From Gemmata sp. (GTDB taxonomy: Bacteria; Planctomycetota; Planctomycetia; Gemmatales; Gemmataceae): DNA of 64,000 nt. The stretch lies in the NCBI GenBank assembly GCA_025055115.1, contig JANWYJ010000033.1, positions 62,001 to 126,000 of the forward strand, given 5' to 3'. A model generated the notes under the pieces. The model did not search any database. It was not told the origin of the DNA and saw only the letters and a list, made by a program, of their open reading frames with translations. The translations under genes and the position numbers were made by a program. Within the stretch, counting starts at the first letter, position 1, and each line of letters begins with the position of its first letter. Shown here piece by piece: positions 8,221 to 13,117 of the stretch.

Positions 8221-9513
8221 ATGCCTTCCGACCGAACTCCCGGCGACACGGGCGGACGACGCCCTCCCGGCACCGCCGGACGCAATCGCAACGCCTACTG
8301 TTCCTTCTGCCGGCGCAGCCATCGCGATGTCGGCCCGCTGGTCGAAGGTCCTGGCGATGTTTACATCTGCGGCGAATGCATCGAGTTGTGCCAGTCGATT
8401 ATCGACCAAGAGAAAAAGCGCCGCGGCAGCCCCAAGGCCACGACCAGCAATATCCCTTCACCGCGTTCGATCAAAGAAAAACTCGATAGCTACGTCATCG
8501 GCCAACAGCGTGCCAAAAAAGTTCTCGCTGTGGCCGTTCACAACCACTACAAACGCCTGGCCATCGGCGACACCCGCGACGTCGAGATCGAAAAGAGCAA
8601 CATTCTCTTCATCGGCCCCACCGGCAGCGGAAAAACCTTGCTCGCCCGCACACTCGCCAAAATTCTCGACGTTCCCTTCGCCATCGGCGATGCCACCACG
8701 CTCACCGAAGCCGGCTATGTCGGCGAAGATGTCGAAAATCTGCTGCTGAAACTGTTGCATGCCGCCGACTTCGATATTGAAGCCGCCCAACGCGGCATTA
8801 TCTACATCGACGAAATCGATAAAATCGCCAAAACGTCGCAGAACGTCTCGATTACCCGCGATGTCAGCGGCGAAGGTGTCCAACAAGCCCTCCTGAAGAT
8901 GCTCGAAGGCACCATCAGCAACGTGCCGCCGCAGGGAGGCCGCAAGCATCCCGAACAGCAGTATATTCAGGTGGATACCTCCAACATTCTGTTCATCTGT
9001 GGGGGCACGTTCGTCGGCCTGGAGAATATTATTTCCCGGCGGTTGGGCCGCAAAAGCATCGGCTTTGGGGCCGTCGCCCAGGAGCAACGCGAACATTCGC
9101 TGGGCGAGCTGCTCAATCAAGTCACCGCTGATGACCTCATCGAGTTCGGCATGATTCCCGAGTTTGTGGGGCGTTTGCCAGTGTTGGCCCCATTGGACCC
9201 ACTCGATGAAGAGGCGATGATTCGCATTCTCACCGAGCCGAAAAACGCGTTGATCCGGCAATATCAGAAACTCTTCGAGATGGAAGGGGCCGAAGTCGAA
9301 TTCGAGCCGGACGCCCTGCGCGAGATTGCCCGACGCGCCAAAGCCCGCGACACCGGCGCTCGTGGGCTGCGCGCGATTGTGGAAGAAATCATGCTCGATG
9401 TCATGTACGAACTCCCTGATATGGAACATAAGGGCAAGCACATCATCACGGCGGATGTCGTTCGCGGTGAACGCAAACTCTGGGAAAAGAAACCTGGGAA
9501 GAAAAGCGCCTGA
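8221..9513 (+). CDS. clpX: ATP-dependent Clp protease ATP-binding subunit ClpX
   Basis: AAA+ unfoldase that recognises substrates and feeds them to ClpP. 430 residues, normal length. N-terminal zinc-binding domain with C27, C30, C50 and C53, then the AAA+ module: Walker A GPTGSGKT from G132, Walker [11 protein letters not shown], the RKHPEQQ segment and the sensor-2 region with [10 protein letters not shown]. Start ATG has GGGAG five bases upstream. No clpP is adjacent. The stop is followed by a stop-anchored tandem duplication and a strong terminator. Confidence 0.97.
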
Positions 9514-9612
9514 GCGACACTTCCCAACTGCCAGCGCACCAGTGAGCGCCACTTCCCAACTGCCAGCGCACCAGAGATAGAGCACCAACGCCAGAGATAG
9601 AGCACCAACGCC
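9511..9612. repeat. Two tandem duplications after clpX, the first starting at the stop codon
   Basis: A 32-bp unit beginning TGAGCG(A/C)CACTTCCC is present at 9511-9542 and 9543-9574 with one mismatch. Its first three bases in copy one are the clpX TGA stop. It runs straight into a second tandem pair, a 20-bp unit starting AGAGATAGAGCACC at 9573-9592 and 9593-9612. The second unit also forms the left arm of the terminator. Confidence 0.95.
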
Positions 9613-9644
9613 GGCGAGAACAAACCTCGCCGGCGTTGGTGCTC
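9600..9644 (+). terminator. Strong terminator-like hairpin after clpX
   Basis: A perfect 19-bp inverted repeat (9600-9618 and 9626-9644) encloses the 7-base loop AACAAAC and is followed by TTGT. The long GC-rich stem would stop transcription from clpX and could also work for transcripts arriving from the other side. The T-run is weak. The left arm overlaps the second copy of a tandem duplication. Confidence 0.75.
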
Positions 9645-9767
9645 TTGTCGCAACGATCATCCAACGCAACTGCGATGTGCGAACACTGTTGCCATCGTCG
9701 AACCACCGACACGACGACGGGCTACATCCTGTCAGCGTTCAGCCTGCAAGCCCATCGCCCGTGAGCA

Positions 9768-9811
9768 ACCACGGCTCGACAAAAAGAATGACCACGGCTC
9801 GACAAAAAGAA
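9768..9811. repeat. Tandem duplication of terminator tail next to the YTV gene
   Basis: A 21-bp sequence starting ACCACGGCTCGACAAAAAG is found at 9768-9788 and 9791-9811 (period 23 bp). Read on the minus strand each copy starts with TTCTTTTTG, the T-tract of the YTV terminator, so the terminator tail is present twice. Nothing else is seen in 9645-9767. Confidence 0.9.
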
Positions 9812-9834
9812 CTCCCGCGAACTGTCTGCGGGAG
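9803..9834 (-). terminator. Rho-independent terminator of the YTV gene
   Basis: On the minus strand CTCCCGC (9834-9828) and GCGGGAG (9818-9812) pair around a 9-base loop and run straight into TTCTTTTTG, a typical intrinsic terminator. It begins 38 bp after the YTV stop codon. Confidence 0.8.
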
Positions 9835-9871
9835 TTAATGGGGATAACTACGACAGCGTCCTTCGTGTCAC

Positions 9872-11830
9872 TTAAGGACATACTGGCACACACACTGGAA
9901 CGTAACGCTTGACGCAATAAGTCACGGTGTAAGGCTCCAGGTGGCAGGTGGTGTACGGCACCAACCGGCAAGCGGTGACAGGAATGACCTTGCACGTGGT
10001 GACCGGCACACAGCGAACACGTTCTTCACAGACATAGTTGACGCGGCACTGCCGCACCACACATTGGCGTTCCTCACTGACAATCCGGCAGGTCGTCACG
10101 GGGACCTGCCGCACGCACACTTCGGGCACCTGTTCCACCACGCAGCGTGTTTCGTAACGAACATGGTCTTCCTTCACCCAACGGCACGTGGTGTAGGTGA
10201 CAGGCCGTGTGATTTGGTGCGGAACCATCGTGCAGTGCCGCTTGGTCACATAGCGAACGTGTTCTTCTTTCACCCAGCGGCAGGTCTTGTAAGGAATCTG
10301 ACAGGTTTTCACCTCCTGGACCGTGTAGCAGCGTTTCTGCGTCACCAATTTGCAATGCGTCTCGGGTATTAGGCGGCAAGTGGTATAGGTGCAGTAACGA
10401 ACATGATGCTCCGGCACTGTATAGCAACGATATCGGGTTTCGTAACGGACCCGCTGTTCGGGCACGAGGCGACAGATCGTGTAGGGAACGTGCTTGACGC
10501 ATTCTTCCGGCACTTTGTAGCAGCGGGTACGGGTTTCATAACGAACGTGCTGTTCGGTCACCATCCGACAAACAGTTCGTGTGCACGTGCGCATTTCCGT
10601 TTGCGGCACTTTACGGCAAACAGGCACCATAACGGTCGTGCAAACCGGCTTGCAGACCATGCGGCATTCTTTCACCACCTGGTACTCTTCTCGCGGCACC
10701 CACACTTTCCGGCACACGGTACGGCCAGGGCACTGAATCGTTTGCGGAACCAGACACCCTGGAACGTAATAACTCGTGCAGGTACACGGATCGAACACGC
10801 ACGTTCCGGGCGTGCGCACATAACGAGTGATGACCGGGCCAGGAATGTAATCGACCACGGTTTCATAATGACCGGTGCAAACTTTCACCACACGTTCCGT
10901 CTCCACCGGTTCCATCACATAGCTGATTCGCTGCTGGGGGACGTAGTCGATCTCCGTGCGGTAGGTCGTCACCGGAACACAATACGTCTGGGTTTCGTAG
11001 ACGGGGCGAACAGTGCAATAGGGAATGGCCACCTGATACGGCTGTATTTCCGTCCGCCACGTGGTGTAGCGCACTTCACGCACATGCTGTTCGAACTCCT
11101 TGCGATACACCGTGTAAGGAATTTCTACCGTGTATGGCTCACGAACGACGCGATAGGTGGTGTAGGGAATTTCGCGAACATGTTGCTCGTACACCGGGCG
11201 ATTCACGGTGTAGGTGACGGGCACTTGAACATGTTCCACCACCGGCCGGTTAACAACATAAGTATGCGTGCGGACATGCTCTTCGATGACCGGTCGCATC
11301 ACACAATAAGGTACGGCGACCTGGTATTCGTGAACCTGTGGTTTCCACACGGTTTGCACAACGTCCTTCACATATTGTTCGTACACGGGCCGCACGGTGC
11401 TATACGGAACAGCCACTTGGAAGGTCCGCGTTACCGGACGCAAGACCGTGAACGTCTGCTGTTGCAGTTGGGTTTCGTACACCGGCCTTTGAACGGTGTA
11501 GGTCCGAACCGTATCGAAGTATTCGACCACGGGGCGTTGCACGGTGTAGCGTTGTTCAACGTAGTTCGTCTCGCGCACCGTCTGGTAGGTGGTGTACTCT
11601 TCAGCGCGGTATTCTGTTTTGTACACCGGGCGATAGCCAACCTGTTGATACTGTTCGATCACCGGTTGGTAGTGGACTGTGGCGGTGGGAATGCAGGGCA
11701 CCGCGCATTGATCGGGCGTCACACACCGTCGGGGATATTTCAGCGCACCGCAGTGGCAGGCGAAAACGGGTGGGGCCTGAAGTACAAGCCCCACCAGTGC
11801 AACCAGACACAACTTGAGATGCTGCCTCAT
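9872..11830 (-). CDS. Secreted YTV-type repeat protein (cell-surface protein)
   Basis: 652 residues from the ATG at 11830; upstream in-frame sequence is unlikely to be coding. Signal peptide MRQHLKLCLVALVGLVLQAP, then mature sequence from about FACHC. Two zones are visible. Residues about 50-330 are nearly Cys-free repeats rich in Tyr, Thr and Val, with the recurring patterns YTVxRPVYEQxV and VAVPYxxxRPV. Residues about 330-652 are Cys-rich units of about 32 residues with the pattern CRxVxEEHVRYxTxxxC. This matches the YTV-domain proteins reported from planctomycete cell envelopes; a role in a disulfide-linked surface layer is inferred. It is followed by an intrinsic terminator. Confidence 0.85.
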   Translation of the reverse strand: MRQHLKLCLVALVGLVLQAPPVFACHCGALKYPRRCVTPDQCAVPCIPTATVHYQPVIEQYQQVGYRPVYKTEYRAEEYTTYQTVRETNYVEQRYTVQRPVVEYFDTVRTYTVQRPVYETQLQQQTFTVLRPVTRTFQVAVPYSTVRPVYEQYVKDVVQTVWKPQVHEYQVAVPYCVMRPVIEEHVRTHTYVVNRPVVEHVQVPVTYTVNRPVYEQHVREIPYTTYRVVREPYTVEIPYTVYRKEFEQHVREVRYTTWRTEIQPYQVAIPYCTVRPVYETQTYCVPVTTYRTEIDYVPQQRISYVMEPVETERVVKVCTGHYETVVDYIPGPVITRYVRTPGTCVFDPCTCTSYYVPGCLVPQTIQCPGRTVCRKVWVPREEYQVVKECRMVCKPVCTTVMVPVCRKVPQTEMRTCTRTVCRMVTEQHVRYETRTRCYKVPEECVKHVPYTICRLVPEQRVRYETRYRCYTVPEHHVRYCTYTTCRLIPETHCKLVTQKRCYTVQEVKTCQIPYKTCRWVKEEHVRYVTKRHCTMVPHQITRPVTYTTCRWVKEDHVRYETRCVVEQVPEVCVRQVPVTTCRIVSEERQCVVRQCRVNYVCEERVRCVPVTTCKVIPVTACRLVPYTTCHLEPYTVTYCVKRYVPVCVPVCP

Positions 11831-12217
11831 GGGAACAATCCCCGTGCTGAGAATCGATGCTGTCGAGCAACCATCCCCGGTTGGAAATGAACCGGGCATT
11901 ATGAGAAATTTGCCCGATGCCGTGGGCCAGCAACAGCTTGCTCGGCTGCTTACCCGCAATCTTTACGCATCCGCCCACGGCGAGACCGGCACAACGGCGT
12001 TTCCCAGATTGTTTCTTGCCGCCGACACAATCCACACCACCCGTACGGTTGCTTCAAAACCACCATTTTCGAAGCCCATCCTGGGTTTCATCCAATTCCG
12101 ACTGTGGCCAGTAGCCACGGCTCCGGTGGGATTGTTCACCGATCTAGGCGCAACTGATTAAGATGGAGGAGAACGTCGGCGGGGCTTCAGCCCAGCGACG
12201 GAGAGTTGAGGTACGCT
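11831..12217. other. Divergent intergenic region
   Basis: 387 bp between the divergent YTV gene and the next hypothetical gene. It must hold the promoters of both, but I see no convincing -35/-10 pair with proper spacing and no repeat. The sequence GATTAAGATGG near 12150 resembles short sequences before gpsA and clpC, but no matching -35 box is present. Confidence 0.5.
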
Positions 12218-13117
12218 ATGAGCCACTCCCCAACCGCGCTGCGCAATGCTCACATCCAAACACCTATCCTGGAGCGGGAAGAGTACATCGAGCAAGCGTA
12301 TCTCTTTCGCACGGTACGCGAGCGGCTGATGGAAAATCAGGCCGCGCAAGACATTCTTCAAACGGTTCATGAGGAACTGCTCTCCAGTACGCGTTTGCCC
12401 TATGCGGTCCAGTTTCTGGCCACTGAGTTGAAGCACACCGGCTTGCTCGCCAGCGGCTTTGCCAAGCTGCCGCATTACTTCACGGCGTTTCAAACGTTTG
12501 TCATTCGTCAGGCCGAAGAGGAAAAGTCCCGTTTCCCGATGACCACAGCGTTTCTCATCCTCGAACGCGAGGCTCACTATCGTGCCAACAACCCCACCCC
12601 GGCCGGATTGTTCGTCTACCAGTTTGAATGCATTGCCCGGAACCGGTTGGGTTATCTCGACGGCCTCGCAGCGATGGCTCAAGACCCCCTCTACAATGAT
12701 GATTGGCGCGCGTACTTCGACCTTTTGCGCAAACAGATCGGTTCCATCGACTTTTGCGACCTTGTATATCTGCGTTCCGAGTACTACCGACTCGAAGAGA
12801 GACGCCGCAATCCAGCGTTTGAACCCGCGCTACCAGTACTTTTTGGCGAAAAAGAAGGCAAAATCGCCAAGGCCAGCCGCCATCGCGACCCCCTATATTT
12901 GTTCGCAGCCTTGCAACGCCAACTGGGATACCCAGAAGTTCCGCGCTTCAAACTCCGCGACGACACCACCACGAAATTGGAAGCCATCCAGCAAAAATTG
13001 CGCGAACTGGAAATGCGCATCAAATTGGCCGAAAGCGAACTTCGCGGCAGCGTCGATCTGAGTCAGTTTGGGAAACCCGAACTCCTCAAGGATTTCCCCC
13101 CTGACGACGACATCTAA
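12218..13117 (+). CDS. Conserved hypothetical cytoplasmic protein
   Basis: 299 residues starting at the ATG at 12218, preceded by GAGG with a six-base gap; a TTG four codons upstream is less likely. No signal peptide or membrane helix. The sequence is largely alpha-helical, with a charged heptad-like stretch near the C-terminus (KLEAIQQKLRELEMRIKLAE) that should form a coiled coil, and an acidic end (DFPPDDDI). I do not recognise a named family; the style and codon use fit a planctomycete-conserved protein. Transcribed alone, divergent from the YTV gene. Confidence 0.7.
   Translation: MSHSPTALRNAHIQTPILEREEYIEQAYLFRTVRERLMENQAAQDILQTVHEELLSSTRLPYAVQFLATELKHTGLLASGFAKLPHYFTAFQTFVIRQAEEEKSRFPMTTAFLILEREAHYRANNPTPAGLFVYQFECIARNRLGYLDGLAAMAQDPLYNDDWRAYFDLLRKQIGSIDFCDLVYLRSEYYRLEERRRNPAFEPALPVLFGEKEGKIAKASRHRDPLYLFAALQRQLGYPEVPRFKLRDDTTTKLEAIQQKLRELEMRIKLAESELRGSVDLSQFGKPELLKDFPPDDDI

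Follow-up and report, generated by a model that had tools for sequence, protein, structure and literature searches.

A YTV-family wall protein of a Gemmata species has two arms of one 16-residue repeat, a cysteine ladder along the second arm, and an oppositely zoned sister protein

A YTV-family gene and its surroundings

The window, a 64,000-nucleotide stretch from the genome of a Gemmata species (4.93 Mb in 100 contigs, 98% complete), contains a gene for a cysteine-rich repeat protein, here called protein A (Table 1). An earlier note, written from the sequence alone, had placed this gene at 9872-11830, assigned it to the YTV family and proposed a profile comparison. Both the coordinates and the family hold. 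The reading frame begins with the ATG at 11830 on the minus strand and runs for 652 residues, and a Pfam search matched it to YTV (PF07639) with an E-value of 3.7e-22 and 78.5 bits against a cut-off of 21, over nine separate stretches. Besides PF07639, Pfam gave no match above cut-off, NCBIfam gave no match at all, and a sequence search for solved structures returned no relative. The closest named relative that we found, from a MAG labeled "uncultured Gemmata sp.", is 93% identical across the whole protein. Proteins of the Pfam family are characterized as cysteine-rich and secreted; protein A has 45 cysteines in residues 26-652 and, as judged by eye alone, a signal-like start, in keeping with the secreted, mature form that the note had implied. 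We conclude that it is a member of the known YTV cell-wall family and ordinary for its class.

Table 1. Features of the protein A gene and their positions in the window
Feature	Residues	Position	Strand	Remarks
YTV-family wall protein gene		9872..11830	-	652 aa, 47 Cys
Signal peptide	~1-24	11759..11830	-	Judged by eye, without a signal predictor
N-terminal Cys cap	25-46	11693..11758	-	C25, C27, C36, C42, C46
First arm	47-317	10880..11692	-	~17 ungapped 16-residue repeats, 3 Cys
Linker	318-404	10619..10879	-	10 Cys, Pro-Gly motifs, little repeat
Linker motif FDPCTC	346-351	10778..10795	-	Sister protein has the same motif
Second arm	405-652	9875..10618	-	16-residue repeats and Cys ladder

The residues around the likely cleavage site are well kept in an alignment of 31 orthologues, with A24 and G28 present in all 31 and H26 and C27 in 28 each. 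A lipoprotein was considered and rejected as the general case because C25, which lies at that site, is a cysteine in just 2 of the 31.

Several other features surround the gene. An antisense frame of 495 codons on the plus strand (10403-11890) lies in register opposite the YTV gene, and several orthologue loci also show long antisense frames. Such a frame can remain open because the YTV protein hardly uses leucine and serine: the codons TTA, CTA and TCA together account for only 1 of the 653 codons of the gene. Most likely, this frame is not a gene. Upstream, a plus-strand gene with only weak Pfam matches (12206-13117) is transcribed away from the YTV gene and adjoins it in four of the eight relative loci tested (L008, L100, L101 and L103), at 76-92% identity. 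Short tandem repeats (periods 32, 20 and 23; roughly two copies apiece, 96-100% alike) occupy 9511-9612 and 9768-9811, in the gap bounded by the ends of clpX and the YTV gene. A scan of 9400-12300 gave no sigma-70-like promoter site and a single terminator-like site where 3.1 were expected.

Two arms of one repeat, unequal in cysteine

Residues 45-316 of protein A can be written as 17 ungapped rows of 16, and residues 413 to the end as about 15 more. In each arm, self-identity at lags of 16 and 32 residues is higher than in all 2000 shuffles, which is not the case at lags 15 and 17. The harmonic at lag 32 is the stronger one, since adjacent 16-residue repeats alternate. The earlier note had described a unit of about 32 residues confined to the second half; the unit is instead 16 residues long and present in both halves. 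We conclude that both arms are built on one ungapped 16-residue repeat. Within the linker that joins them, the motif extends to CVFDPCTC, and its cysteines C349 and C351 are present in 42 of 43 orthologues.

Cysteine is distributed very unevenly along this framework, with 4 residues in the cap (counted from residue 26), 3 in the first arm, 10 in the linker and 28 in the second arm. A two-rate change-point over residues 26-652 falls at residue 343, separating 8 cysteines in 318 residues from 37 in 309, and none of 2000 shuffles reached its likelihood. Thus, the sharp change between two cysteine zones that had been proposed for this protein is real, but its first part is not free of cysteine, as the counts for the cap and first arm show, and the underlying structure is one of two arms of equal-length repeats joined by a cysteine-rich linker. 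The direction of the zoning is conserved, the second arm being the richer in all 43 orthologues. The number of cysteines in the first arm varies across the same 43 proteins from 0, in three of them, up to 32 of 270 residues. A "Cys-free" first arm is therefore the low end of a graded range, and the zoning is no strict rule.

A cysteine ladder in the second arm

The second arm carries cysteines at residues 405, 421, 437, 453, 469, 485, 501, 517, 533, 549, 581, 613 and 629, skipping only 565 and 597. These amount to 13 of the 25 cysteines in residues 405-632 on a single phase of 16, a number that none of 20,000 random placements attained. A circular-mean test gave no significant signal at period 16 (the observed value was reached by 302 of 5000 random cysteine sets) because the remaining 12 cysteines sit at other phases.

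The ladder is strongly conserved. Each of its twelve sites from 421 to 629 is a cysteine in 28-31 of the 31 aligned orthologues, and C405 is kept in 26. The three first-arm cysteines of protein A are shared with 10, 13 and 3 of the 31, and the most cysteine-rich column of that arm, which corresponds to a glycine here (G65), is cysteine in 16. Across all 43 orthologues and 15 ladder sites, including the skipped ones, cysteine fills 565 of 645 cells. The corresponding first-arm sites, which we assigned with our own alignment based on the shared local pattern YTT-C/Y-R, comprise 731 cells with 271 tyrosines, 73 methionines and 72 cysteines.

AlphaFold models of the mature protein together with three relatives had a mean pLDDT of 28. 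When 96 residues of the second arm were modeled with an alignment of 16 rows, one of five models reached 63.5 and showed two long strands, the others lying at 26-39, and the pTM was 0.27. At these scores, we did not accept any of the models as the fold.

A sister protein with the opposite zoning

The genome contains a second YTV gene (G000:C75, L001), whose product, protein B, is 609 residues long from the chosen start. It also has a 16-residue period, and its linker motif reads CEFDPCTC against CVFDPCTC in protein A. With arm boundaries placed on L001 by eye, 23 cysteines lie in the 194 residues of the first arm and 3 in the 239 residues of the second, after which comes a cysteine-rich tail. 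That tail (residues 525-609) and a non-repeat insert within the second arm (residues 369-427, ending in GRVFVEGLQ) were not seen in protein A.

We sorted relatives into groups A and B by BLAST with cysteines masked, so that cysteine could not drive the grouping. The masked groups agree with one split, of support 1.0, in a tree made from unmasked sequences. Grouping by motif misplaced 9 of 76 sequences and was rejected. The 76 sequences counted for zoning (43 A and 33 B) come from genomes chosen by good matches rather than at random, and exclude duplicate views of one gene, sequences cut by contig ends and those shorter than 500 residues. L113 was retained though cut at its end. L045 stayed in unchanged although it represents just the second frame of an A gene that is broken into two frames in G020; L020 and L090 were shortened to their probable starts.

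In group B, the first arm is richer in cysteine in 32 of 33 proteins, L001 included; the exception is L114, and in L084 and L116 the arms are nearly equal. Among the 27 genomes that have both proteins, 26 show opposed zoning. These cases do not count as independent events, since they go back to a single old difference that was retained. Between genomes, the cysteine contents of the Cys-poor arms of A and B covary with a Spearman coefficient of 0.60 (27 pairs), or 0.54 with one pair per genus (16). After correction for descent, the relationship is weak (r 0.44, sign-flip p 0.048, one of six comparisons).

Outside the family, we compared by eye 18 proteins from three other families of the class, f3, f4 and f6. 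All eight f3 proteins, two each from four genomes, are poorer in cysteine in the first part. About half of the ten f4 and f6 proteins are cysteine-rich throughout, and in L165, L168, L169, L172 and L174 the first part is poorer or cysteine is low overall. One of two f2 proteins resembles B, and the other has no clear zoning. We conclude that the mirrored pair is established for the Gemmataceae only and not for YTV walls generally.

Distribution and wall context

Protein A found matches in 59 of 61 genomes of the family, its own included, although in some of them the matched protein is the sister. YTV itself occurs in all 118 sampled genomes of the class (at least 90% complete, own included) and in 98 of 102 genomes of the order when less complete ones are included. 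In a sample of the phylum, 18 of 148 genomes have YTV, and 16 of these 18 belong to the same class; the exceptions, G200 and G234, have one weak match each, above cut-off, and for 110 of the genomes with no match the class is unlisted. YTV is thus nearly restricted to the class of the source organism. Genomes differ widely in how much YTV repeat they have: L135, from another family of the class (G177), has 28 profile matches against 7 in the source genome.

The peptidoglycan transpeptidase family PF00905 was found neither in the source genome nor in 60 of the 61 family genomes (at least 90% complete, own included), compared with 10 of 14 control genomes in which it was found. This agrees with a passage of PMC8567305, according to which most Planctomycetales have no peptidoglycan genes, and lack of the transpeptidase is a reported trait of many, not all, genomes that bear YTV. 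Passages of PMC10632474 and PMC5287468 report peptidoglycan in the wall of Gemmata obscuriglobus and its detection in Planctomycetia, so a protein layer would not have to bear the load by itself. The former also suggests that cysteine may govern wall rigidity, and lists a YTV protein among the planctomycete-only essential genes of Planctopirus. Two proteins that could oxidize the cysteines were sought. DsbA turned up in only 15 of the 61 family genomes, the source genome not among them, and VKOR, which was sought only in the source genome, was not found there; both results count against disulfide formation in protein A.

A proposed role for the ladder

We consider it probable, at roughly 60%, that protein A is a structural wall protein cross-linked by disulfides along one arm. 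The envelope location and structural role that the earlier note had suggested are supported by descriptions of wall homologues in passages of PMC5287468 and PMC8567305, and cross-linking by the second arm is compatible with its conserved cysteine ladder. With its signal-like N-terminus, the protein would be secreted into the planctomycete wall, where, by comparison with its homologues, it would form an abundant part of the wall layer. The 16-residue repeats would give an extended, mainly beta rod. Since nearly every unit of the second arm offers one cysteine at the same place, neighboring chains could be zipped together by disulfides, while the first arm may pack without covalent bonds or join something else. 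In this family, which is without the usual transpeptidases, such a layer would bear some of the load that peptidoglycan otherwise carries.

The strongest competitor to this reading, which we regard as possible though clearly less probable, is that the ladder cysteines pair within a single chain and do no more than stiffen the second arm, leaving the layer to be held together non-covalently. Cysteines of successive repeats share a phase, as would suit stacking inside one rod. In Tuwongella, the passages of PMC8567305 place the two top-scoring cysteine-rich YTV wall proteins only in fraction S3, which is soluble in Tris/SDS; this favors pairing within the chain and in any case limits how far these homologues can be covalently locked. 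By contrast, passages of PMC5287468 name YTV proteins as the main components of Gemmata walls prepared by boiling in 10% SDS, and their presence after this treatment counts against the competitor.

It is improbable that the zoning is functionless, with arms that simply drifted and orthologues that resemble one another by descent. Its graded purity (0 to 32 first-arm cysteines), the other patterns in other families of the class and the weak covariation of the Cys-poor arms once descent is corrected for speak for this view. However, orthologues down to about 36% identity keep the richer second arm without exception, and conservation at the twelve best ladder sites far exceeds that of any first-arm column (28-31 against at most 16 of 31). 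Slightly less probable still is a ladder that binds metal or buffers thiols in place of forming disulfides, which the failure to find DsbA or VKOR in the source genome would suit, but which is at odds with ladder cysteines 16 residues apart rather than in close pairs and with wall homologues described as structural in passages of PMC8567305 and PMC5287468.

The sister protein raises a further and much more tentative idea. The Gemmataceae wall might be a two-component polymer in which disulfides join the adjacent cysteine arms of A and B and the Cys-poor arms pair non-covalently, so that alternating A and B chains would form a sheet in which rigid and yielding bands alternate. On the sequences at hand, we think this picture unlikely to be right as a whole.

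Comparison with known systems

Protein A resembles the YTV wall proteins of Tuwongella immobilis and Gemmata obscuriglobus in its family match, signal-like start, high cysteine content and near restriction to one class. Its genome has two YTV loci, as many as the two proteins named for Tuwongella in passages of PMC8567305. To what those passages on Tuwongella and Gemmata say, our analysis adds the 16-residue register, the cysteine ladder, the FDPCTC linker shared with the sister and the mirrored sister itself. None of these four is mentioned in the parts of the literature that we searched, a scope without Mahajan et al. 2020, and such silence is not proof of absence in print; the ladder and the mirrored pair may be features that specialists have not seen.

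The question of how planctomycetes without the usual peptidoglycan transpeptidases keep their shape is still open. A one-arm ladder of cysteines every 16 residues, together with an oppositely zoned sister, offers exact residues and an exact pairing to examine. The chlamydial proteins OmcA and OmcB are cysteine-rich outer-membrane proteins that are cross-linked by disulfides in an envelope poor in peptidoglycan. We know of no such repeats or zoning in OmcA and OmcB, and the likeness to the YTV protein that we draw is one of working only.
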